A stretch of DNA of 38,305 bases from a virus. The stretch covers positions 1 to 38,305 of the IMG/VR virus record IMGVR_UViG_3300031857_000536; one strand, given 5' to 3'. The position numbers and the translations under genes were made by a program. The notes beneath the pieces are model-generated. The model made no database searches, was not told the origin of the DNA, and saw only the letters and a program-made list of their open reading frames with translations. Below, in pieces: positions 150 through 21,950 of the stretch (position 1 is the stretch's first letter; every line of letters begins with the position of its first letter).

Positions 150-221
150 TCTTCTGTCGTATAAAGGTTATTACGGTTGACTGTTAATCAATTTATGGTG
201 GTTCGAGTCCACCCGGAAGAG
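150..221 (+). tRNA. tRNA-Asn (GTT)
   Basis: Acceptor TCTTCTG pairs with CGGAAGA. The anticodon loop CTGTTAA carries GTT, and the T arm is GGTGG-TTCGAGT-CCACC. The discriminator is G and no CCA is encoded. First clear tRNA of the array. Confidence 0.85.
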
Positions 222-229
222 CGAGGTTT

Positions 230-277
230 CCCCACACCTCCATATGGCACTCGGTCCGTTAAGCCGGGGAAGTGGGG
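230..277 (+). ncRNA. small hairpin RNA element between tRNAs
   Basis: CCCCAC (230-235) pairs with GTGGGG (272-277) around an inner CGG...CCG hairpin, ending GGGGAAG just before the 3' strand. It has no anticodon arm and no T loop. It resembles in outline the elements at 5916-5992 and 6297-6386. Function unknown. Confidence 0.3.
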
Positions 278-285
278 TTATATAT

Positions 286-359
286 GGTGATTGTAGCTGA
301 AATGGTAAAGCGTCTGATTGTGGTTCAGGAGATTGTGGGTTCGACCCCCACCTTTCACA
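286..359 (+). tRNA. tRNA-His (GTG)
   Basis: The anticodon loop TTGTGGT sits on a TCTGA/TCAGG stem, and the T arm is GTGGG-TTCGACC-CCCAC. A G lies 5' of the acceptor at the -1 position expected for His. The acceptor has two T-T mismatches (positions 5:68 and 6:67), so the stem is weak. Confidence 0.8.
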
Positions 360-369
360 CTTAAAAATT

Positions 370-443
370 GTCTCCATAGTTTAATTGGAAAAATACTTGA
401 ATACGAATCAAGAGACGTGGGAGTTCGACTCTTCCTGGAGACA
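370..443 (+). tRNA. tRNA-Arg (ACG)
   Basis: Perfect acceptor GTCTCCA/TGGAGAC. The anticodon loop ATACGAA on a CTTGA/TCAAG stem gives ACG. T arm GGGAG-TTCGACT-CTTCC. No encoded CCA. Confidence 0.88.
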
Positions 444-475
444 CAAAAAAGTTTATTAATTTAATTTATATAAAA

Positions 476-799
476 ATGGAAAAAATCACCTTACAAAGAA
501 ATATGGATGATGGGTATGGTACTGTTTATTGTATTCAAAAACAAGATTTTGAACTCGGAAATATTCACGAATATTTTGAGATTGAAGAAAAATTCGAGAA
601 TGTTGAGTCAGTTGTAAATTATTTGAAAGAAAAATATGAACAAGACGATTATGATTTTATTGAAGATGTTAAATGTAATTTAGATGATTCTGAAGATGCT
701 GACCATTTCCAATCAACCGCGAACCCTAATGGTTCCGGAAATAATGTTGATAATCTTGTTTTGATATATAATGGAAAAGTTTTATTTGAAACTTTTTAA
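476..799 (+). CDS. small acidic hypothetical protein
   Basis: A 107-residue acidic protein that I do not recognise. It is rich in Glu, Asp and aromatic residues, with a predicted mixed helix/strand layout and no membrane segment or signal peptide. The ATG follows an AT-rich leader right after the Arg tRNA, so it may be co-transcribed with the tRNA array. It is followed within 11 bases by a Ser tRNA. Small acidic proteins inside phage tRNA arrays are common and mostly uncharacterised. The call as a real gene rests on ORF length, good codon use and the absence of an RNA structure in the same span. Confidence 0.65.
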   Translation: MEKITLQRNMDDGYGTVYCIQKQDFELGNIHEYFEIEEKFENVESVVNYLKEKYEQDDYDFIEDVKCNLDDSEDADHFQSTANPNGSGNNVDNLVLIYNGKVLFETF

Positions 800-809
800 A
801 TTAAATTTT

Positions 810-895
810 GGAGAGTAAAACAATCAGGGTATTGTCACCGCCTGCTAAGCGAGTGGTTCGGTAAAATGGATGGATTTCGAATATTCTGCTCTCCG
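810..895 (+). tRNA. tRNA-Ser (GCT)
   Basis: Acceptor GGAGAGT pairs with GCTCTCC. The loop CTGCTAA gives anticodon GCT. It is a class II tRNA with an extended variable arm, 86 nt in total, followed by G and CA. Confidence 0.82.
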
Positions 896-910
896 CAGAC
901 AAATTATATT

Positions 911-982
911 AGGGTGTAGGAAAGTTGGTTAATCCGCTATATTTGGGATATAGAGAACGCTGGTTCGAGTCCAGTCACCCTA
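911..982 (+). tRNA. tRNA-Pro (TGG)
   Basis: Acceptor AGGGTGT pairs with TCACCCT. The loop TTTGGGA on CTATA/TATAG gives TGG. T loop TTCGAGT. Discriminator A. Confidence 0.88.
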
Positions 983-989
983 ACAACTC

Positions 990-1061
990 GGGTACGTAAT
1001 TCAGTGGTAGAAGCCCATTCTGATGAAATGGTCGTCGATGGTTCGAATCCATCCGTACCTA
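990..1061 (+). tRNA. tRNA-Ile (GAT)
   Basis: Acceptor GGGTACG/CGTACCT. The loop CTGATGA on CCATT/AATGG gives GAT. T arm with TTCGAAT. Discriminator A. Confidence 0.88.
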
Positions 1062-1144
1062 CAAATGTGGCTCACAAACTTTGATTATTAAGTTCAAATT
1101 AGTTATATTTTGAGCCAAATAACAAAGTGAAATGAGCTCAAATT

Positions 1145-1216
1145 GACCTCGTAACTCAGCGGTAGAGTACCAAACTTTTAATTTGGGAGTCGAGATTTCG
1201 AAATTCTCCGGGGTCA
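1145..1216 (+). tRNA. tRNA-Lys (TTT)
   Basis: Acceptor GACCTCG/CGGGGTC. The loop CTTTTAA on CCAAA/TTTGG gives TTT. T loop TTCGAAA. Discriminator A. The spacer at 1062-1144 holds nothing I can identify. Confidence 0.88.
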
Positions 1217-1249
1217 CAAAAAAGAATGTTTAATTAAAAATCAAAAGTT

Positions 1250-1756
1250 GTGAATAAGTACGGAAAAACTTTGGTTTTGGATTCAAGTTTTATGCCAAGG
1301 TCCATCATAAATACTGAGAGGGCTTTTGTTATAAGTTATAAAGGTAATGCTGATATTATTGCCGAACATCCGGAATCATTCAAATTAGTAAATCCTGAAT
1401 TGGATATCAAAAAACCTTCAATTATTAGAGTTTTCAAATATGTGAATCAGGTAATTCAAAAGGTTCCTTTAAGTAGAGAGAATGTTTATCGTAGAGATAA
1501 TTTTGAGTGTGTTTATTGTGGATGTGATAACAGAAAGACATTAACATTAGACCACGTAATACCCCAATCTAAGGGAGGTAAAGATACGTGGGATAACTTG
1601 GTAACCGCTTGTAGAAGATGTAATAGTGAGAAGTCTAATTTGACGTTGGAGGAGTATGGTAAAGAAATTCCCCAACCAAGACGACCACACTATTTGATGT
1701 TAATGAGACAGGTCCATTATATCCCGCAAGAATGGGAACCATATTTATTATTTTAA
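1250..1756 (+). CDS. HNH endonuclease
   Basis: A 168-residue HNH nuclease of the McrA-like group. Two CxxC-type knuckles (CVYC near residue 87 and CRRC near 121) flank the HNH core LDHVIPQSKGG, with NLV and N further on, as in phage and bacterial HNH proteins that cut DNA using a beta-beta-alpha-metal fold. The likely start is GTG at 1250; the only nearby upstream ATG (1226) reaches a stop after three codons. It lies alone between the tRNA array and the restriction-modification operon. It could be a free-standing homing nuclease or a phage DNA-processing enzyme; the sequence does not tell which. Confidence 0.85.
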   Translation: MNKYGKTLVLDSSFMPRSIINTERAFVISYKGNADIIAEHPESFKLVNPELDIKKPSIIRVFKYVNQVIQKVPLSRENVYRRDNFECVYCGCDNRKTLTLDHVIPQSKGGKDTWDNLVTACRRCNSEKSNLTLEEYGKEIPQPRRPHYLMLMRQVHYIPQEWEPYLLF

Positions 1757-1762
1757 AAAAAA

Positions 1763-1794
1763 TTTGATGGATTACAAAATAAGTATTATCTTTG
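1763..1794 (+). promoter_or_regulatory. Bacteroidetes-type promoter for the restriction-modification operon
   Basis: TTTG at 1763-1766 and TATCTTTG at 1787-1794, 20 bases apart, 18 bases before the nuclease start codon. Confidence 0.75.
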
Positions 1795-1811
1795 TAAAAA
1801 AATAAATAACT

Positions 1812-2498
1812 ATGAAAAAAGTAATAAATGAACTAAGAAGAGTTAATTTTGTTGATTATGCGTTTTTATATATTGAAAACAATTTAATTGTCCAACAATT
1901 TTATGGGGCTTGTAAAAATAATGAATCTCTTAATGAGTTTTATAACTTAGAGGAAGTTAGTCAAGTTGGGGTTCAATTAACCGCACAAATATCACACAGT
2001 TTTTATACATTCTTAAAATATAATTTAAACGATTTCTTAGAGTCTCAAAAATCATTTTTAAGAGTTGTTTTAGAGAGAGAATCAAATCAAATTAAAAGTT
2101 ATGATTTGGTGTTTATTGATATCACTACTAATGAAAAATATTACTTGGAGATTAAATTGAGTCAAAATGATAACTCTTGGCAAGGTTCAACATCTTCAAC
2201 TTCTAAAGTGGATAATTTCTTATTAATTAATTTTAAAATTGATAGAGACAAAAAGTTATCGTTAACTAACAATAATGGTTTATTTAGCGGTGTATTTGCC
2301 GGAATATTTAATTTAGGTTCACATAAATGGAATGGTGATGCTAAATCTAACAATCATAGAACTTCTTTTGATTTTAGAATGACCGATTGGTCCATTGATA
2401 ATCTAACTGAAAACTGTATAATTAAAGGAGGGGTGATTCCTAAACAAAAAAAATATCACCTAAAATTAAATCCGGTAAATTATGAGATTATTAAATAA
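1812..2498 (+). CDS. type II restriction endonuclease, PD-(D/E)XK-like
   Basis: A 228-residue protein, probably the cleavage subunit of a restriction-modification pair. A PD-(D/E)XK-type core is visible: Asp98 in the strand SYDLVFID, then Glu113 and Lys115 in YYLEIK, followed by a Gln/Ser-rich segment (SWQGST) typical of catalytic helices in this fold. It shares no obvious sequence family with a named enzyme that I can recall, so the recognition site cannot be given. The gene has its own Bacteroidetes promoter, and its last 17 bases overlap the methyltransferase gene, the tight coupling expected of R-M operons. The assignment rests on motif plus partner; a plain unknown protein is the alternative. 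Confidence 0.72.
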   Translation: MKKVINELRRVNFVDYAFLYIENNLIVQQFYGACKNNESLNEFYNLEEVSQVGVQLTAQISHSFYTFLKYNLNDFLESQKSFLRVVLERESNQIKSYDLVFIDITTNEKYYLEIKLSQNDNSWQGSTSSTSKVDNFLLINFKIDRDKKLSLTNNNGLFSGVFAGIFNLGSHKWNGDAKSNNHRTSFDFRMTDWSIDNLTENCIIKGGVIPKQKKYHLKLNPVNYEIIK

Positions 2499-3342
2499 TA
2501 ACACAACAGGTGATTTTGTTGAACTAGCAAAAGAAATACCAAATAATTATGTTGACTTAACAGTTACATCACCACCATACGATAATCTAAGGACTTATAA
2601 TAACAAAATTACAGGTGTTAAAGAAAGTGGATTTAGCTTTGATTTTGAAACAATGGTTTCTGAATTATATCGAATTACTAAAGATGGTGGAATCGTTGTG
2701 TGGGTTGTTGGTGACCAAGTAAAAAATGGTGGAGAAACTGGTAGTTCATTTAGACAAGCCTTAGGATTTATGTCCAAAGGTTTTTTGTTATATGACACAA
2801 TGATTTATATGAAAAATGGGGCACCGTTTCCTGAAAAAAAACGATATTCCCAAGTTTTTGAATATATGTTTGTATTTTCAAAAGGGAAACCTAAAACCGT
2901 GAATTTATTAAAAGATAAGAAAAATAAATGGGCGGGATATTCCAATTTTGGGAAACGTGTAATGAGAACTAAAGATGGTGAATTAAAAGAAATGCCTGAG
3001 TTTACAATTGCGGAATATGGTAATAGATATAATGTTTGGCAATACAATACCGGTAAAAATTATTCAACAAAAGATTCATATGCGTTTGAACATCCCGCAA
3101 TTTTTCCGGAAGAATTGGTTGAAGACCATATTTTAAGTTGGTCAAATGAAGGTGATATTGTTCTTGACCCAATGGTTGGTTCCGGAACAACATCAAAGAT
3201 GGCAAAATTAAATAACCGTAATTTTATTGGAATCGATATTAGTGATGAATATATTGAAATATCAAATAAACGGGTTGAAAATGTTATCCCTTATACTAAT
3301 GAAAATAAAAATCCAAAAAGTGATTTTATTGTTGTGAAATAA
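2482..3342 (+). CDS. DNA methyltransferase, beta-class (N4-cytosine or N6-adenine)
   Basis: A 286-residue site-specific DNA methyltransferase. Catalytic motif IV TSPPY is at residues 29-33 and the AdoMet-binding motif I DPMVGSGTT at 229-237, so the order is catalytic region first, as in beta-class enzymes. SPPY favours N4-cytosine methylation, though some N6-adenine enzymes share it. The start ATG lies inside the end of the restriction gene, giving translational coupling. It would protect phage DNA, and host DNA once expressed, from the paired nuclease, or protect the phage from a host enzyme of the same specificity. The family call is strong; base and target site are unknown. Confidence 0.92.
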   Translation: MRLLNNNTTGDFVELAKEIPNNYVDLTVTSPPYDNLRTYNNKITGVKESGFSFDFETMVSELYRITKDGGIVVWVVGDQVKNGGETGSSFRQALGFMSKGFLLYDTMIYMKNGAPFPEKKRYSQVFEYMFVFSKGKPKTVNLLKDKKNKWAGYSNFGKRVMRTKDGELKEMPEFTIAEYGNRYNVWQYNTGKNYSTKDSYAFEHPAIFPEELVEDHILSWSNEGDIVLDPMVGSGTTSKMAKLNNRNFIGIDISDEYIEISNKRVENVIPYTNENKNPKSDFIVVK

Positions 3343-3362
3343 AAAATTTAGTTATATCTTTG
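3329..3362 (+). promoter_or_regulatory. Bacteroidetes-type promoter before the ABC membrane protein
   Basis: TATCTTTG at 3355-3362, with a weak TTG near 3332 about 20 bases upstream. It shows that the TTG at 3360 is promoter and not a start codon. Confidence 0.6.
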
Positions 3363-3383
3363 TCAAAATTAAAATGGAAAGAT

Positions 3384-4235
3384 ATGAATAAGTTAAAAGT
3401 AATGTTTAAGGAGAATTGGAAATCGATTATGTTTTCATACTCCCTGTTTATGATAAACTCAATATTGATGGTGATGTATCCCAAAGTTTTGGGTAATGCG
3501 ATTGACCATTTGATAGCAAAAGATTATTCATACATTTGGTATTTGGTTTCAACATTTGTTGCCATTATGTTCTTTGGTTATATTAGTAAAATTTACGATA
3601 CCAAAGTATTCTCCGGGATTTACCGAAGATTTGCATCGATTGAAACTCACAAACAAATTGAGAGTGGTGTTGAGACAACCAAAATTAACGGACGATTGAC
3701 GTTAATGAATTATATTGTTCATTTCTTTGAACGAGATATGTTGGTTATATTACAAACAATAATTGGTTTGGTTGGGGCAATTTACTTCTTGTCTATGGTT
3801 AGTTTAACAATAGTTGGATTCTTAATGATTAGTGCAGTTTTAATCTTGGGGGTTAGTTTTTATTACTCACCAAAGATTGCTGAGGTGACTAGTTTAAATA
3901 ATGACTTATCTGAAGAACAAACGGATGTGATTAGCACAAGAAACATTTCATCAATCAATAACTTGTTAAAAAGAGGTCAACATTTATCTCTTAAATTATC
4001 CGGTATTGATGCTAAATTTGGAATTTGGATTCAAACAATTGTATATGGAAGTGTAACGGCTTTATTAACATACTATGTAATGTTTAATAAGGTTAGTGTG
4101 GGAAGTGTATTCTCAACATACAGATATATGTTTGATTTTTGTAATTCTCTTCTTGGGACACCGATGATTATCATATCATACATCAACATTAAAGATGTTA
4201 TTAAAAGATTGGAGACAGAAAATTTGGTAGATTAA
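3384..4235 (+). CDS. orphan ABC-exporter-like transmembrane domain protein
   Basis: A 283-residue membrane protein with about five to six hydrophobic helices (near residues 14-33, 47-65, 117-137, 141-160, 217-240 and 250-270). The arrangement and the long soluble helices resemble the six-helix domain of type I ABC exporters, but there is no Walker A or signature motif, so the nucleotide-binding half is absent. The start is ATG 3384; an upstream in-frame TTG at 3360 lies inside the promoter. It is transcribed alone, directly after the methyltransferase. It may alter the host envelope or act as a superinfection or permeability factor; that part is inference. Confidence 0.6.
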   Translation: MNKLKVMFKENWKSIMFSYSLFMINSILMVMYPKVLGNAIDHLIAKDYSYIWYLVSTFVAIMFFGYISKIYDTKVFSGIYRRFASIETHKQIESGVETTKINGRLTLMNYIVHFFERDMLVILQTIIGLVGAIYFLSMVSLTIVGFLMISAVLILGVSFYYSPKIAEVTSLNNDLSEEQTDVISTRNISSINNLLKRGQHLSLKLSGIDAKFGIWIQTIVYGSVTALLTYYVMFNKVSVGSVFSTYRYMFDFCNSLLGTPMIIISYINIKDVIKRLETENLVD

Positions 4236-4253
4236 AATTTAATTGTATCTTTG
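4223..4253 (+). promoter_or_regulatory. Bacteroidetes-type promoter
   Basis: TTTG at 4223-4226 and TATCTTTG at 4246-4253, spacer 19, overlapping the end of the membrane protein gene. It serves the two small genes and the Cys and Trp tRNAs. Confidence 0.75.
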
Positions 4254-4269
4254 TAAAAAAATAAACGAT

Positions 4270-4413
4270 ATGACAACAACAGAAGAGATTTTAGGTTTTA
4301 CGAATTGGTTATACATCAACAATTGGAAATTAATTGGTGATGGAATGTGTTTGAATCTTGAAACAAAGGCGATTGGTTATATTAACGAACTGATGGTTGA
4401 ATATAATAAATAG
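4270..4413 (+). CDS. small hypothetical protein (47 aa)
   Basis: The ATG lies 17 bases after a strong promoter box, and the ORF ends in TAG at 4411-4413. The product begins MTTTEEILGF and contains NWKLIGDG. No domain is recognised. Promoter position and the tight 5-base gap to the next gene support expression. It would be the first gene of a short two-gene unit that runs into tRNA-Cys and tRNA-Trp. Confidence 0.55.
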   Translation: MTTTEEILGFTNWLYINNWKLIGDGMCLNLETKAIGYINELMVEYNK

Positions 4414-4418
4414 AAATA

Positions 4419-4661
4419 ATGATACCAAAAAATGAAATGAAACAGGGTTGGTATAACGGGTTTAGTAGGAATAATCACGTCGCTTATTGGGATGGTGATA
4501 AATTTCAATATCTTCGTTATAGTTTCAACTATTACTTGGACACCATAGAACATTTTGAAGATGTTAAAGAAAGTGGATTTGATGGGTTTGTTCCGGTTGA
4601 TAGAATTGAAAGATTGACTCCGGAGGAACAATGGAAAATTAAAGATGAAATAGGATATTAA
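4419..4661 (+). CDS. small hypothetical protein (80 aa)
   Basis: An 80-residue soluble protein starting MIPKNEMKQGWYNGF, rich in Tyr, Trp and Phe, with no known motif that I can name. It follows the 47-residue gene by five bases and is followed three bases later by tRNA-Cys, so protein genes and tRNAs appear to share one transcript. The aromatic-rich N-terminal half followed by a basic/acidic helix (ERLTPEEQWKIKDE) suggests a small globular fold. It is probably a phage accessory protein made early; function unknown. Confidence 0.6.
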   Translation: MIPKNEMKQGWYNGFSRNNHVAYWDGDKFQYLRYSFNYYLDTIEHFEDVKESGFDGFVPVDRIERLTPEEQWKIKDEIGY

Positions 4662-4664
4662 ATT

Positions 4665-4734
4665 GGTCAGGTTGGTCGAGGAGGCCGGTAAGTCTGCAAA
4701 ACTTACGGAGGGGGTTCGATACCCTCCCTGACCT
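4665..4734 (+). tRNA. tRNA-Cys (GCA)
   Basis: Acceptor GGTCAGG/CCTGACC. The loop CTGCAAA on TAAGT/ACTTA gives GCA. T loop TTCGATA. Discriminator T, as usual for Cys. Confidence 0.88.
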
Positions 4735-4742
4735 CAATAAAT

Positions 4743-4814
4743 GCGTCATTGGTGAAATGGTTATCATTTTAGTCTCCAAAACTAAAGTTTCAGATTCGAG
4801 TTCTGAATGGCGTG
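4743..4814 (+). tRNA. tRNA-Trp (CCA)
   Basis: Acceptor GCGTCAT pairs with ATGGCGT. The loop CTCCAAA on TTAGT/ACTAA gives CCA. T arm TCAGA-TTCGAGT-TCTGA. Discriminator G, as usual for Trp. Confidence 0.88.
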
Positions 4815-4889
4815 CAAAATAATTCTTACCAATATTTGACTTTTTACAAAACTAACGTATATTTATTAGAAATTATAATAACACAACAA

Positions 4890-4964
4890 ATGCAAACTTT
4901 AAACATATTACTTACGATAGCAGGAACTGAGGGTAGAAATACAACTTGGAAGCAGATGGTATGA
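4890..4964 (+). CDS. possible 24-aa peptide before a terminator
   Basis: A short ORF, MQTLNILLTIAGTEGRNTTW then KQMV, ending TGA, placed about 30 bases before a strong hairpin terminator. It could be a tiny phage peptide or chance; nothing else in the stretch 4815-4990 explains it. No ribosome site is visible. Confidence 0.3.
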   Translation: MQTLNILLTIAGTEGRNTTWKQMV

Positions 4965-4992
4965 TATATATTTAAGTGAAAAAAATATTCAA

Positions 4993-5026
4993 AAATCCAT
5001 CTTCAAAAAAGGTGGATTTTTTTTTG
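4993..5026 (+). terminator. intrinsic terminator
   Basis: An 11-bp stem (AAATCCATCTT with AAGGTGGATTT) with an A-rich loop, running into a long T tract. It closes the Cys/Trp tRNA unit. Confidence 0.85.
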
Positions 5027-5034
5027 GTTTATAG

Positions 5035-5064
5035 TTGGTAGAATGAAATAAAGTATTATCTTTG
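5035..5064 (+). promoter_or_regulatory. Bacteroidetes-type promoter
   Basis: TTGG at 5035-5038 and TATCTTTG at 5057-5064, 25 bases before the start codon at 5089. Confidence 0.68.
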
Positions 5065-5088
5065 TAAGGAATTAAAAATGTAATTATT

Positions 5089-5301
5089 ATGTCGGACAAA
5101 AAAACGATGAATGAAGAGTTAGCGATGGAATATTCTCCCATCTTAGGAGTAACCTACGGATTAGTAAATGTTACGGAAAATGAGGATAGTGAAGAACGTG
5201 ATGAATTACACGACTTTGATTTAGTTATGAATCTTATGGTTGGTGATTTAGACGAAGGACCGGAATATGATGGCGCCGGGTTTTCTATCGAGGATAGATA
5301 A
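5089..5301 (+). CDS. small acidic hypothetical protein (70 aa)
   Basis: A very acidic 70-residue protein (many Asp and Glu, for example NEDSEERDELHDFD), with no recognised domain. It has its own TATCTTTG promoter and sits between two terminator/promoter units, so it is a monocistronic early-type gene. Strong negative charge on a small protein is a common feature of phage DNA-mimic or host-takeover inhibitors, but nothing in the sequence proves that role here. Confidence 0.62.
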   Translation: MSDKKTMNEELAMEYSPILGVTYGLVNVTENEDSEERDELHDFDLVMNLMVGDLDEGPEYDGAGFSIEDR

Positions 5302-5316
5302 AAAAAATAAAAAAAG

Positions 5317-5347
5317 TTTGGTATAATGAAATAAAGTATTATCTTTG
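5317..5347 (+). promoter_or_regulatory. Bacteroidetes-type promoter for tRNA sub-array
   Basis: TTTG at 5317-5320 and TATCTTTG at 5340-5347, spacer 19, about 47 bases before tRNA-Glu. Confidence 0.8.
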
Positions 5348-5393
5348 TACCATCAAAATGAGATAAGTTATTTGAAATATCGGTAATACAAAC

Positions 5394-5465
5394 GGCCCTA
5401 TCGTCTATCGGTTAGGACATTAGGTTTTCATCCTAAAAAGTCGGGTTCGACTCCCGGTGGGGCTA
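5394..5465 (+). tRNA. tRNA-Glu (TTC)
   Basis: Acceptor GGCCCTA/TGGGGCT. The loop TTTTCAT on TTAGG/CCTAA gives TTC. T arm CGGG-TTCGACT type. First tRNA after a promoter. Confidence 0.88.
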
Positions 5466-5470
5466 CAATT

Positions 5471-5542
5471 GGGGATATAGTATAACGGCAATTACAATGG
5501 TTTTGCAAATCGTAAATTAGGGTTCAACTCCCTATATCTCCA
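5471..5542 (+). tRNA. tRNA-Ala (TGC)
   Basis: Acceptor GGGGATA/TATCTCC with a G3-T70 wobble, the main alanine identity element. The loop TTTGCAA on ATGGT/ATCGT gives TGC. T arm TAGGG-TTCAACT-CCCTA. The D stem is short. Confidence 0.82.
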
Positions 5543-5546
5543 CAAA

Positions 5547-5618
5547 GGTCTCATAGTTAAACGGCTATAATGCAGCCCTGTCACGGCTGAGTTCGGAGTT
5601 CGATTCTCCGTGGGACCG
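5547..5618 (+). tRNA. tRNA-Asp (GTC)
   Basis: Acceptor GGTCTCA/TGGGACC. The loop CTGTCAC on CAGCC/GGCTG gives GTC. Discriminator G. T loop TTCGATT. Confidence 0.9.
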
Positions 5619-5633
5619 CAAAAAAAATACATC

Positions 5634-5707
5634 GCAAGTGGGGGGCATAGAGTTTCCGCGAGTCTCATAAACTCGACGTAAGACAGGGGCGGTACCTGTA
5701 CTTTGCT
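5634..5707 (+). tRNA. tRNA-Met-like (CAT) with a non-standard T loop
   Basis: The anticodon arm CGAGT-CTCATAA-ACTCG is perfect and carries CAT. The T-position arm ACAGG-GGCGGTA-CCTGT has the right size (5 bp, 7 nt) but its loop lacks the near-universal TTCRA. The acceptor GCAAGT pairs with ACTTTGC only if one T bulges. The D region is not canonical. Either a degenerate tRNA or a tRNA mimic. It shares the CGAGT...CAT arm with the unit at 86-144. Confidence 0.5.
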
Positions 5708-5734
5708 ACTAATTATTAATCTAAAAACCAACGT

Positions 5735-5908
5735 ATGGCAACAGTTCAACAAAGGTCAAGACAATCAAGAGTATTGTCTATGTTAGAACACCAACTGAAA
5801 AGTGGTGTGAAGACACAAAAGAAAACGAGGGACGTAAAAGTTCCATTAACAGATTCTGACAAGAGAAGAATCGAAAAAGAGATGGGGATTCTCCAATCTA
5901 AGTTATAA
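5735..5908 (+). CDS. small basic hypothetical protein (57 aa)
   Basis: A 57-residue Lys/Arg-rich protein beginning MATVQQRSRQSRVLSMLEHQ, probably helical, with a charged C-terminal helix (DKRRIEKEMGILQSKL). It is embedded in the tRNA array about 27 bases after the Met-like tRNA. Its basic composition suggests binding to nucleic acid or ribosomes, but no motif confirms this. Confidence 0.55.
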   Translation: MATVQQRSRQSRVLSMLEHQLKSGVKTQKKTRDVKVPLTDSDKRRIEKEMGILQSKL

Positions 5909-5915
5909 AAAAAAT

Positions 5916-5992
5916 AGATGAATAGACCACACCCGGGGTTAGTGATTTAATTAGTGGGTCTCATTTCGGTACACAAGTCCGAAGTTCATCTA
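5916..5992 (+). ncRNA. tRNA-sized structured element without an anticodon arm
   Basis: A perfect 7-bp closing stem AGATGAA (5916-5922) with TTCATCT (5985-5991), followed by an A in the discriminator position. Inside are GACCAC with GTGGGTC and a TTCGG...CCGAA hairpin. It lacks both a T loop and a readable anticodon arm. It lies between a protein gene and tRNA-Gly. Confidence 0.4.
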
Positions 5993-5996
5993 ATGT

Positions 5997-6070
5997 GACG
6001 GTATCGCCTAGTAGGTATGGCACCACACTTCCAATGTGGAATAAGGTCGGTTCGAGACCGACTATCGTCT
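5997..6070 (+). tRNA. tRNA-Gly (TCC)
   Basis: Acceptor GACGGTA/TATCGTC. The loop CTTCCAA on CCACA/TGTGG gives TCC. T arm GTCGG-TTCGAGA-CCGAC. Discriminator T. Confidence 0.88.
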
Positions 6071-6077
6071 CAAAATT

Positions 6078-6149
6078 GCCTCCATCGTTCAATGGATAGG
6101 ACATATCCCTTCTAAGGATAGTATCGGGGTTCGAGTCCCTGTGGGGGTA
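6078..6149 (+). tRNA. tRNA-Arg (TCT)
   Basis: Acceptor GCCTCCA/TGGGGGT. The loop CTTCTAA on TATCC/GGATA gives TCT. T loop TTCGAGT. A T-rich tract follows at 6152-6159. Confidence 0.88.
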
Positions 6150-6217
6150 CCATTTTTTTTATTTTCATTTCTTTATAATTTGTTATAGAAAACAGATGGG
6201 TTAAAGTCCCATCAAAC

Positions 6218-6290
6218 ACCCCGGTGGTGGAATGGTAGACACGCTTGTCTTAGGAACAAGATTTTGAGGGTTCGAATCCCTCCTGGAGTA
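6218..6290 (+). tRNA. tRNA-Leu (TAG) with a short variable loop
   Basis: The loop CTTAGGA on CTTGT/ACAAG gives TAG. The D arm is Leu-like (GGTGGAATGGTAGACACGC). T arm GAGGG-TTCGAAT-CCCTC. The variable region is only about 5 nt (ATTTT), whereas bacterial Leu tRNAs normally have a long class II arm. The acceptor ACCCCGG/CTGGAGT has one mismatch. Confidence 0.82.
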
Positions 6291-6296
6291 CAATAC

Positions 6297-6386
6297 ATTA
6301 TCATAACTCGGTGTGATACACCGCCAAACTACCTCCTTAAACAACGTGGGAACTGCGGTTCTCCCAATGTGGCCGAAGTGATGATG
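6297..6386 (+). ncRNA. 90-nt structured element closed by a tRNA-like 7-bp stem
   Basis: ATTATCA (6297-6303) pairs with TGATGAT (6379-6385) and is followed by TA, as in a tRNA. Inside are the hairpin CGGTGT-GAT-ACACCG and a GGGAAC...GTTCTCCC stem. There is no T loop or anticodon arm. The 3' strand is preceded by CCGAAG, exactly as in the element at 5916-5992. Confidence 0.38.
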
Positions 6387-6395
6387 TTAAAATAG

Positions 6396-6469
6396 GCTTC
6401 CTACGCACGAATGGTGGTGCACCGGATTTGTAACCCGGAATAGAGTCAGTTCGATTCTGACAGGAAGCT
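6396..6469 (+). tRNA. tRNA-Thr (TGT)
   Basis: Acceptor GCTTCCT/AGGAAGC. The D stem is GCAC/GTGC. The loop TTTGTAA on CCGGA/CCCGG gives TGT, with an A-C mismatch at the base of the loop. T arm GTCAG-TTCGATT-CTGAC. Confidence 0.85.
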
Positions 6470-6695
6470 CGAGTCGTTTTTTGTGAGTTCAGTCTGTGAG
6501 TTCTGTTTTTCTGTTGTTAAGAAAAATCAGTGGGAAGTGGATAGTTTGTTAGAAGTTTCTTTGTCTTAAAAGAAAGGATGGTTCGGTTTAGGATGAGATT
6601 GACGATACTTATTAGGAAATCTCTCAAAAAAAAGGAAAAATTATAAAGACAAACTCAAGTCGAAGATGGTAAACGTAACCATCAGTTTTTCCGGT
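6470..6695 (+). other. 226-base stretch with no gene found
   Basis: No convincing ORF, tRNA or promoter. The only structure seen is a 6-bp hairpin GATGGT...ACCATC at about 6665-6683 followed by TTTTT, which could be a weak terminator. Confidence 0.4.
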
Positions 6696-6696
6696 A

Positions 6697-6772
6697 GGTC
6701 AGGTGGAAGAGTTGGTACTTCGTTCGGTGGGAAACTGCCGAAAGGTCACGGGTTCGAATCCCGTCCTGACTT
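6697..6772 (+). tRNA. tRNA-like gene with an enlarged anticodon loop
   Basis: Acceptor GGTCAGG/CCTGACT, D arm GAAG...CTTC and T arm ACGGG-TTCGAAT-CCCGT are all canonical. The anticodon stem TTCGG/CCGAA encloses a 10-nt loop TGGGAAACTG in place of 7 nt, so no anticodon can be assigned with U33 in place. The body is well conserved, so this is not simple decay. Confidence 0.7.
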
Positions 6773-6777
6773 CAAAT

Positions 6778-6850
6778 ATCCTCGTGGTGAAACGGTAAAC
6801 ACAACAAGTTTAAGCCTTGTAAGCTGCAGGTTCGACTCCTGTCGGGGATA
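6778..6850 (+). tRNA. tRNA-Leu (TAA) with a short variable loop
   Basis: Perfect acceptor ATCCTCG/CGGGGAT. The loop TTTAAGC on ACAAG/CTTGT gives TAA. T arm GCAGG-TTCGACT-CCTGT. The variable region is about 5 nt, again unusual for Leu. Confidence 0.86.
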
Positions 6851-6865
6851 CTAAATATTATCAAT

Positions 6866-6955
6866 ATGGGGAAAAAAATTATTAAGGTAATAAAGATAAT
6901 ACTACTAATAACAGTATTTTTTTTAACTTGGAGATTTAGACATCATTTTATCTAA
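6866..6955 (+). CDS. 29-aa single-span membrane peptide
   Basis: A short ORF starting MGKKIIKVIKIILLITVFFL then TWRFRHHFI, with one hydrophobic helix flanked by basic residues. It lies between tRNA-Leu and tRNA-Met. Size and layout fit a small phage membrane peptide (for example a holin-like or inhibitory peptide), but there is no direct evidence of function. Confidence 0.4.
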   Translation: MGKKIIKVIKIILLITVFFLTWRFRHHFI

Positions 6956-6967
6956 AAACCCATAAAA

Positions 6968-7043
6968 GTCCTATTAGCTCAGTCCGGTTAGTAGCAGTTC
7001 GCTCATAACGAAAAGGTCGCAGGTTCGAATCCTGCATAGGACA
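6968..7043 (+). tRNA. tRNA-Met (CAT)
   Basis: Perfect acceptor GTCCTAT/ATAGGAC. D arm GCTC...GAGC-like. The loop CTCATAA gives CAT. T arm GCAGG-TTCGAAT-CCTGC. It could be elongator Met or an Ile tRNA whose C34 is modified to lysidine; sequence alone does not decide. Confidence 0.85.
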
Positions 7044-7166
7044 CAGCGGATATTTTAGTGTAAGCAAGTACAATATCTATCGTTAGTCTCTTACAGGTGG
7101 TGAACGGTGGTCTGATTGTCATTAATCAGTGTAGGTACCCGGTAACCCTACATTTATCAGAATAGA
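7044..7166 (+). ncRNA. possible structured RNA after the last tRNA
   Basis: There is no ORF. Paired segments are visible: TGTAAG with CTTACA, GGTCTGAT with ATCAG...AGACC, CTGATT with AATCAG, and GTAGG with CCTAC. It runs straight into a terminator. It might be a tail of the tRNA transcript with a regulatory or stabilising fold. Confidence 0.35.
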
Positions 7167-17973: not shown

Positions 17974-18005
17974 TTTGACAGATAAAAATAAATGTCTTAT
18001 CTTTG
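17974..18005 (+). promoter_or_regulatory. Bacteroidetes-type promoter for the permuted tRNA-like array
   Basis: TTTG at 17974-17977 and TATCTTTG at 17998-18005, spacer 20. No protein gene follows, so the product is RNA. Confidence 0.82.
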
Positions 18006-18043: not shown

Positions 18044-18116
18044 GTGGACGTTGTGTCGAGGATTCAAATCCCTCCGGTCTTAACCCCGTAGCTCAGATGG
18101 TAGAGCATACGTCCAC
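18044..18116 (+). ncRNA. circularly permuted tRNA-like RNA, unit A
   Basis: The 3' half of a tRNA (anticodon-stem strand, variable loop GTGTC, T arm GAGGA-TTCAAAT-CCCTC) comes first, and the 5' half (TAGCTCAGATGGTAGAGCA with D stem GCTC/GAGC) comes second. The outer ends pair as an 8-bp helix (GTGGACGT 18044-18051 with ACGTCCAC 18109-18116) that continues the anticodon stem. The acceptor ends face each other across a short linker but pair poorly (CGG/CCG plus AA/TT). No joining of the ends yields a 7-nt loop with U33, so ordinary decoding looks unlikely. Confidence 0.6.
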
Positions 18117-18126
18117 TAACTTATAT

Positions 18127-18217
18127 GGTATTATAGCTCAGTGGGGGATTTATCTCCCTTGGTAGAGCAGGAGTAACGAAAGACTCTGTGCCGGTGGTTC
18201 GAACCCACCTGATACCA
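18127..18217 (+). tRNA. tRNA-like gene with a D-loop hairpin insert and odd anticodon loop
   Basis: Acceptor GGTATTA/TGATACC and T arm GGTGG-TTCGAAC-CCACC are canonical. The D loop holds a 16-nt insert that folds as GGGGGAT/ATCTCCC. The anticodon stem GGAGT/ACTCT closes an 8-nt loop AACGAAAG with no U at position 33, so no codon can be assigned. It lies between the two permuted units on the same transcript. Confidence 0.6.
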
Positions 18218-18218
18218 C

Positions 18219-18314
18219 AAAATGTGTAGTGTAGAGTCGTTGGTTCGATTCCAACAACCGTAATCCTGGTGACCAAGGTTTAGCTGCAGTGGTAGAGCTT
18301 ACACAACACATTTT
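18219..18314 (+). ncRNA. circularly permuted tRNA-like RNA, unit C
   Basis: Same order as unit A: first the 3' half (GTGTA 18229-18233, variable loop GAGTC, T arm GTTGG-TTCGATT-CCAAC), then the 5' half (D arm GCTGCAGTGGTAGAGC, then TACAC 18300-18304). GTGTA pairs perfectly with TACAC as the anticodon stem. After one A-A mismatch the helix continues 9 bp outward (AAAATGTGT with ACACATTTT). AACC...GGTT forms the inner acceptor end. A T-rich run after 18311 would serve as terminator. Confidence 0.65.
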
Positions 18315-18342: not shown

Positions 18343-18373
18343 TTTGACTTCTGAAAAAAATCACTTATCTTTG
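18343..18373 (+). promoter_or_regulatory. Bacteroidetes-type promoter for the giant RNA
   Basis: TTTG at 18343-18346 and TATCTTTG at 18366-18373, spacer 19. Start of RNA expected near 18380. Confidence 0.85.
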
Positions 18374-18379
18374 TAAAAC

Positions 18380-19290
18380 AAATTAGGGAAACCTAATACG
18401 TTCTTAGAAATTTTAGATTATCCATATAGTACTTAGGTATTATAAAAACGATAATGGGTGGTATATCATCCTTAAATAAACCGGGAAACCGGGATAAAGT
18501 GAATCTGTTGTGTTGACAGGTTTGCGGTCTCAGAAATGGGACTCGAGTATACAAGTCGGATATCATCTAACCTTGAGTATCGAGGGAAACTCTTTAGAGA
18601 AAGTGGTTGGGTGACCGGGCGATGTGGGTCGTCAGGTTGAGGTGGGAACACCAATAAGAATAACCGATAGGAATCAAACAAGAAATTAGGTCATCCAACT
18701 TAATGATTGTGGGTTCCAATATCAGAGGGGACTTAAAACCGAAAGGTAAGTTAGAGAACGAGTGGTGTCGCTACTAACCTTACGAAACATCTACCAAGAT
18801 GTCAGTTTGAAGTAATCTTAAAATATGAGAGTGGGGACACTCTACCGAGTAGACAAGTATTTTGTTGTTCAAAAGATAACGAAGCTTACGACAGACCTCT
18901 ACTTGGACACATCCACGACACAAATCTTATTCAAATTAAGTAAAACTAAAGAGATATAAGCAAAAGTGTCTGTCAGGTATCATCGACAAGGTGACTACAT
19001 AGTAACGAGCCGTTCGTTGCACAGGATGACCGCAAGTCAGAATGTATTCTTACGAAAAACCTCTACGGAGTCGAATCCGGAGTCAGGTCGCAAGCTTGAA
19101 GAGAGTTGAATAATAAGAGAGTAGATGATATCGAAAGGAGTGATTGGTCTAACCAATCGGCAATGAGGATTACATTCCAAAAGAATGTGGAAACGAAGGG
19201 AACCAATAATCCTTCCAAAGATTCTCAATAAGACGAGTATTCTCATCGTATTAAGCCAAAAGGTGTTACAGAAATGTGACACCTTTTTTT
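18380..19290 (+). ncRNA. giant structured RNA (~900 nt), GOLLD/ROOL-like candidate
   Basis: About 900 bases with a promoter at one end, a terminator at the other, and no plausible ORF on either strand. Many small hairpins with GNRA or related loops are visible: ATTAGG-GAAA-CCTAAT (18386), CCGG-GAAA-CCGG, GGTG-GGAA-CACC, AGAGTG-GGGA-CACTCT, GATTGGT-CTA-ACCAATC and ACATTC-CAAAA-GAATGT. Base composition is clearly more balanced than the AT-rich coding DNA. GOLLD RNAs are large, ornate, phage-borne and found near tRNA genes; size and setting fit that class best, ROOL being shorter. Membership is inference; it may be a new class. Confidence 0.7.
19258..19290 (+). terminator. intrinsic terminator of the giant RNA
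   Basis: AAGGTGT...ACACCTT stem with inner ACA/TGT pairs and seven or more T. It overlaps the end of the convergent HNH gene. Confidence 0.85.
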
Positions 19291-21562: not shown

Positions 21563-21950
21563 TGGTGGAGATGTCGGCTTCGAAGCCGAGTGCTGCTCAC
21601 GCTAAAAATTCAAGACTACACGTTTATTCAATTTTTCTAAACTGACAAAATTCACAATTCCCTTATTTTAGAGTGGTTCGGTTTACTGAGAACTAATCCT
21701 CCACTTGTACCTTTTCGGATAGGTACCACACCTTAAAGAGTTTCTGTTCCTAGGCTTAATACTCACCGGCCCGAATGTGTGTTTGCTTACGCTACGTTCA
21801 CAAGCTCATCTTGACGTACAAGACCTACTAGAGCCATTTTGTTTAAAATGTTGCCATTTATAATTTGTTACTCATAGATTTAAGTGATAGAGAACATCTC
21901 ACTACGTGCCTCAAATAGGTAGATATGCCAGTCGATACCATTTCATCCCC
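21563..21950 (-). ncRNA. ssrA: tmRNA (transfer-messenger RNA)
   Basis: A 388-nt tmRNA on the minus strand. The 5' end GGGGATG pairs with CATCTCC before an encoded ACCA end. The acceptor has a G3-T70 wobble, the alanine identity mark. The D-like region GGTATCGACTGG matches tmRNA, where TCGAC is typical. The T arm is TCGGC-TTCGAA-GCCGA with a loop one base short. After a CTCTAGTA resume signal (E. coli has CTCTTAGTC) comes a tag frame of 12 codons at 21787-21825, ending in TAA. With SmpB it rescues stalled ribosomes. The promoter is a perfect host-type one, and the 3' end reaches the bidirectional terminator. Confidence 0.93.
21787..21825 (-). CDS. tmRNA proteolysis tag frame (GLVRQDELVNVA)
   Basis: Twelve codons GGT to GCG then TAA. 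Translation would resume at GGT after the Ala from tmRNA, adding A-GLVRQDELVNVA. Bacterial tags nearly always end ALAA or similar; this one ends VNVA. The choice of resume codon rests on the TAGTA before it, matching TAGTC in E. coli. An upstream in-frame GCT would give three more residues. Confidence 0.68.
   Translation of the reverse strand, partial: GLVRQDELVNVA

Follow-up and report, generated by a model that had tools for sequence, protein, structure and literature searches.

The DNA that we analyzed (the window, a viral stretch of 38,305 nucleotides) encodes two small RNAs, unit A (18044-18116, + strand) and unit C (18219-18314, +), in which the T-arm half of a tRNA-like fold precedes the D-arm half; both are real, conserved structured RNAs, and we identify them with high confidence as modules of the type that forms the tRNA-like part of the bacterial Y RNA YrlA. 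This permuted topology is already known; what is new is the orphan form, that is, modules that probably function without Rsr (Ro60), and their setting beside a cloverleaf that lacks an anticodon and the GOLLD RNA, in a phage lineage that is probably of Bacteroidota. They show the tRNA-like part of Y RNAs on its own, separated from the usual Rsr-binding stem and kept by selection in phages, so that the role of this part alone is now directly testable (PNPase binding, decoy of tRNA-reading proteins).

Structure and conservation of units A, B and C

Units A, B, and C are predicted to be made as one transcript from a single phage promoter at 17974-18005 (+). This promoter is of the Bacteroidota type (TTTG-N-TATCTTTG), a motif that is enriched in the window (15 occurrences versus 3.9 expected; none of 100 shuffles reaches 15), and its position 5' of A is kept in relatives. 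A second promoter of the same type, also identified by motif enrichment, is located at 18343-18373 (+) and would serve the GOLLD RNA, whose conserved 3' domain is found at 18845-19249 (+; Rfam RF02032, 310.9 bits); judging from the collinear homology of the entire stretch in relatives, the whole GOLLD RNA probably starts near 18380.

In A, which is defined by its fold, its covariation, and its scores with YrlA and Y RNA models, the outer ends pair as an 8-bp helix (18044-18051/18109-18116) that continues the anticodon stem and encloses the T-arm (18058-18074), a closed acceptor-like hairpin (18075-18088), and the D-arm (18091-18106). In C, which is defined by the same YrlA and Y RNA models, a model of A, and alignment, the outer helix consists of an outer part of 9 bp (18219-18227/18306-18314), an A-A mismatch (18228/18305), and an inner part of 5 bp (18229-18233/18300-18304), and it encloses the T-arm (18239-18255), a closed hairpin (18256-18280), and the D-arm (18283-18298); all of these elements are on the + strand. 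An earlier note on this DNA had described both the order of the halves and the pairing of the outer ends, and its coordinates and pairings are correct. It had also observed that neither unit yields a 7-nt loop with U33; we find a continuous 8-bp helix in A and an interrupted 14-bp helix in C instead, and its reading of the two as tRNA mimics whose anticodon is replaced by an extended helix is supported. The acceptor-like part of each is a closed hairpin of 3-4 bp, with no CCA.

Shuffled sequences seldom fold as stably as these RNAs (A, z -2.24, 4 of 200 shuffles equally stable; C, z -3.08, 1 of 200; the whole A-B-C transcript, z -3.90, 0 of 100), and complete pairing (8/8) at the spacing of A's outer helix is found at 0.09% of randomly chosen positions in the window. 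The single-sequence minimum-energy fold of C contains the outer helix and the T-arm, with the D-arm region paired otherwise; thus, the tRNA-like D-arm of C rests on covariance models and one double change (vide infra), not on the minimum-energy fold.

Relatives were gathered with the downstream SmpB protein as the query, which identified 52 viral loci. A and B are present in 17 distinct islands (window included), always both and in the same order; C is present in seven of the 17. Covariation in relatives, which the earlier note had named beforehand as a check, provides the decisive support for A in this comparison of sequences: its outer helix is 100% paired across 13 distinct sequences (strand pairs include GTGGACGT/ACGTCCAC, GTGGGTGT/ACACCCAC, and GTGAGTGT/ACACTCAC), and three of its pairs are altered on both sides. 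The 13-sequence alignment contains 11 double-changed cells versus 3.9 in shuffles (0 of 500 have as many); in the control in which the pairing partners are slid by 1-3 columns, no double changes are found. The nucleotides of the tRNA elbow are kept in A (U8/A14, G15/C48, the D-loop GG, and the T-loop TTCRA), with exceptions in one locus, L094, in which the G19-equivalent is altered and the T-loop is TTAAA; the loop of the acceptor-like hairpin varies freely. For C the same check is only partly informative: the six sequences are nearly invariant, with a single double change in the D-stem (G-C to A-U), so the unit is too conserved for the alignment to tell much about covariation.

Unit B (18126-18217, +), which is flanked by A and C, is a cloverleaf that is incapable of decoding. 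It matches the Rfam tRNA model (39.8 bits) and is called a proline tRNA by ARAGORN; the reported ‘anticodon’ is, however, in the region of a hairpin (18143-18158) inserted in the D-loop. Covariation is found at 12 pairs over 17 sequences and is strong in every arm that varies, and the acceptor/T stack is intact. The cloverleaf thus covaries, but the anticodon position (18175-18182) is occupied in nearly all 17 sequences by an 8-nt loop that contains GAAA and has no U33, so we rejected B as a decoding tRNA. The covariation in A and B rules out chance or rearranged tRNA debris as the source of these units.

Relation to the tRNA-like module of YrlA

The Rfam model for YrlA (RF02553) scores A at 32.0 bits and C at 24.1 bits; the tandem tRNAs of the window score 12.9 bits at most. 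The E-value of C in this search (0.007) is weak by itself, and the identity of C stands instead on the model of Rsr-associated Y RNAs and on the model of A. Both units miss the Rfam gathering score of 69 bits, as do the Rsr-associated phage Y RNAs, the best of which scores 53.2.

Independently of this, we scanned viral contigs for the bare T-then-D order with the flanks unconstrained; of the 50 records obtained by this topology-only scan, 25 contain a gene for a TROVE protein (Rsr/Ro60). When the records are split with ARAGORN, the gene accompanies 22 of 32 standalone permuted modules versus 3 of 18 tandem-tRNA junctions, so a standalone T-before-D topology is a mark of phage Y RNAs. From 20 of these Rsr-associated Y RNAs we built a covariance model, with no window sequence included; it scores A at 48.8 bits and C at 34.7 bits; the best tandem-tRNA stretch of the window scores 24.8. 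Conversely, a covariance model of A recovers C and 20/20 of the Y RNAs, all with at least 24.4 bits; one tRNA-cluster stretch of the window scores 24.5 with this model, so its weakest matches are not set apart by score alone. In other phages, junctions between closely spaced tandem tRNAs score 40-57 bits with the core model; we therefore dropped the core-model score as sole proof and count a score only alongside the absence of overlapping tRNAs and a covarying outer helix. The earlier note had allowed that the D and T halves might belong to other complete tRNAs; neither ARAGORN nor Rfam places a tRNA across A or C, and none of the ARAGORN tRNAs makes use of one of the halves, so A and C are not the halves of tandem tRNAs.

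The features shared with YrlA are the T-arm located 5' of the D-arm (the D-arm of C being less certain), the closed acceptor hairpin, the helix in place of the anticodon arm, and the conserved elbow nucleotides; two nearby copies of such a module are seen in other phage records, too. The Rsr-associated phage Y RNAs (e.g., L175, L184, and L188) have the same core, and the covariance-model matches are reciprocal; however, these have a GTTACTTC-type 5' strand and a neighboring Rsr gene. A and C differ from YrlA in their shorter acceptor hairpins (3-4 bp versus 5-6 bp), in lacking a stem motif of the Rsr-binding type and, as far as the records of the lineage show, a TROVE gene, and in sharing a transcript with an anticodon-less cloverleaf and adjoining GOLLD. 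In YrlA, the basal stem tethers Rsr, and the tRNA-like domain makes contact with PNPase and is a substrate of the modifying enzymes DusA and TruB (PMC8394870). Mycobacteriophages have Y RNAs, as possibly does Listeria phage CKA15, beside an Rsr-like protein (PMC12282133), and TROVE proteins occur in some jumbo phages (PMC7824862). BLAST searches of phage records with A-B-C gave low-significance matches only, and those listed are annotated tRNAs; a search of bacterial and archaeal genomes with the T-arm pattern retrieved mostly archaeal records, and some bacterial loci gave scores with the core model.

Circularly permuted tRNA genes are known from red algae and some archaea, and the earlier note had likened A and C to these and to permuted tmRNA, that is, to RNAs that are cut in the acceptor loop and have their outer ends joined or held together. 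The points of likeness are that the T half comes before the D half and that there is an outer helix; the same topology is, however, standard in YrlA. Moreover, the 7-nt anticodon loop with U33 cannot be made, no tag frame is noted, and no tmRNA match is found over A or C with Rfam; the phage has a separate, one-piece tmRNA at 21563-21950 (-). The two internal ends do not form the full acceptor stem of a permuted tRNA gene, and the 3-4 bp hairpin found in its place is closed, has no CCA, and in A has a freely variable loop, so neither the proposed kinship nor the proposed cleavage into two-piece RNAs is upheld; the shorter hairpins and the free variation of the loop disfavor RNase P cutting in the acceptor-like loop of A. 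We regard this reading of A and C as barely credible.

The missing Rsr half and the possible function of A and C

A 5' basal-stem strand of the GTTACTTC type, a motif that was defined post hoc, after viewing the TROVE-linked sequences, is present in 23 of the 25 TROVE records versus 3 of the 25 others; it is absent from A and C. No TROVE gene is found in two sets of related records (0 of 20 and 0 of 48; 66 different records); because these are mostly fragments (five are 282-322 kb, none certified complete), this result is not proof of absence. Ten standalone modules without TROVE are found in other viral records, two of which are about 327 kb, so orphan modules extend beyond the A-B-C lineage. 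These two large records, L152 (326,658 bases) and L202 (328,068 bases), contain standalone permuted Y-RNA-type modules that score 77-79 bits with the core model, with no TROVE gene.

In the reading that we consider most likely, and to which we give somewhat better than even credence, A and C are Rsr-independent mimics of the tRNA elbow, made together with B by a phage with neither a detectable Rsr/Ro60 gene nor an Rsr-type stem, that would bind a host protein of RNA metabolism. The topology, the covariation of A and B, the homology of A and C to Rsr-associated Y RNAs, the missing Rsr motif, and the lack of a TROVE gene in the 66 related records are the parts of this reading taken directly from the sequences; the function is inferred. 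A and C would copy the D/T-loop core of the elbow on a closed helix that replaces the anticodon arm. Given the intact acceptor/T stack of B and what is established about tRNA processing, B is expected to be a substrate of host RNase P and RNase Z, with predicted cuts near 18126 and 18217 that would release A and C. Once released, the modules would expose a tRNA elbow that has neither an anticodon nor an acceptor end and could be bound by a host protein that recognizes the tRNA core. The first candidate is PNPase, followed by the tRNA-modifying enzymes (TruB and DusA modify YrlA); because the same module binds PNPase in Deinococcus, competition for PNPase or for tRNA-core enzymes would be the likeliest role. 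As a decoy or an adaptor, A and C may then change how RNA is turned over in the infected host. The target, PNPase or another protein that recognizes the tRNA core, is a tentative choice guided by Deinococcus.

The homology to Rsr-associated Y RNAs would also be expected if A and C were ordinary phage Y RNAs that use host Rsr/Ro60 via a diverged stem and link this protein to PNPase in the manner of the Deinococcus RYPER complex; the host of the phage may have Rsr. However, the 5' motif typical of the TROVE records is missing, the outer helices of A and C are unlike the Rsr-type stem, and none of the 66 related records has a TROVE gene; we consider such a use of host Rsr unlikely. A, B, and C are three anticodon-less mimics in a phage that has many tRNAs, and they might instead be decoys or inhibitors of tRNA-cleaving defense nucleases that shield the phage's own tRNAs; YrlA, which is itself not cut, has been proposed as a competitive inhibitor of an anticodon nuclease (PMC7790460). 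Most such nucleases need the anticodon loop that A, B, and C lack, and no link to defense is seen, so this role is quite unlikely.

GOLLD is a hollow 14-mer cage with no known cargo. The location of the modules directly 5' of GOLLD in 17 of 17 islands and the suggestion that tRNAs are a possible content of the cage (PMC12286853) would be consistent with A-B-C as partners or cargo of GOLLD; however, the two have separate promoters, other copies of GOLLD in this phage family have no A and B upstream, and no contact is predicted between A-B-C and GOLLD, which makes such a partnership improbable.

The modular island upstream of GOLLD

Although A and B are constant, the islands contain variable modules: X between A and B (in L098, L109, and L104), Y (L087, L114, and L094) and Z (L087, L089, L091, L098, L100, L104, L109, L114, and L128) after B, and V, a small RNA with its own promoter, before GOLLD (L094, L098, L114, and L128). 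Each has either a closing helix or a leading promoter of its own; none has an Rfam match, and Z shows no covariation. As in GOLLD neighborhoods described previously (PMC12286853), tRNA-related RNAs are located beside GOLLD in a phage; here, however, the nearest neighbors are non-decoding mimics on their own transcript, and such mimics are now placed beside GOLLD. The permuted Y-type modules, the GAAA-loop cloverleaves, and a further family (AGTCAGG/CCTGACT), in which the acceptor/T-arm is fixed and the middle varies, could conceivably constitute an Rsr-independent set of non-decoding mimics that is shuffled upstream of GOLLD and acts as decoys or GOLLD partners; we offer this as a speculation.

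At its predicted 5' end (18380-18400), GOLLD has a small GAAA-loop hairpin (TTAGG-GAAA-CCTAA), the stem of which changes compensatorily in relatives (TGAGG/CCTCA, TTAAGG/CCTTAA). The phage SmpB (20047-20484, +; Pfam E 5e-50) and the phage tmRNA (Rfam, 64.4 bits) are a trans-translation pair that is close to GOLLD and is kept in relatives.

Members of the AGTCAGG family are tRNA-like RNAs of 73-144 nt that share the same acceptor/T-arm (AGTCAGG ... ACAGGTTCGAATCCTGTCCTGACT) and have very different middles, most with no recognizable anticodon arm. They are found in L087, L089, L091, L094, L095, L096, L098, L103, L104, L109, L114, and L263, often several per phage, and some are located just 5' of the A-B-C island. 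In the window, ARAGORN makes 18 tRNA calls at 150-7044. The sequence at 6697-6773 (+) is reported as ‘tRNA-??? (gaaa)’; a GAAA tetraloop capping a stem of 8 bp is one way to draw its anticodon loop, and, with the acceptor GGTCAGG/CCTGACT, it looks like a further non-decoding mimic of the AGTCAGG family.
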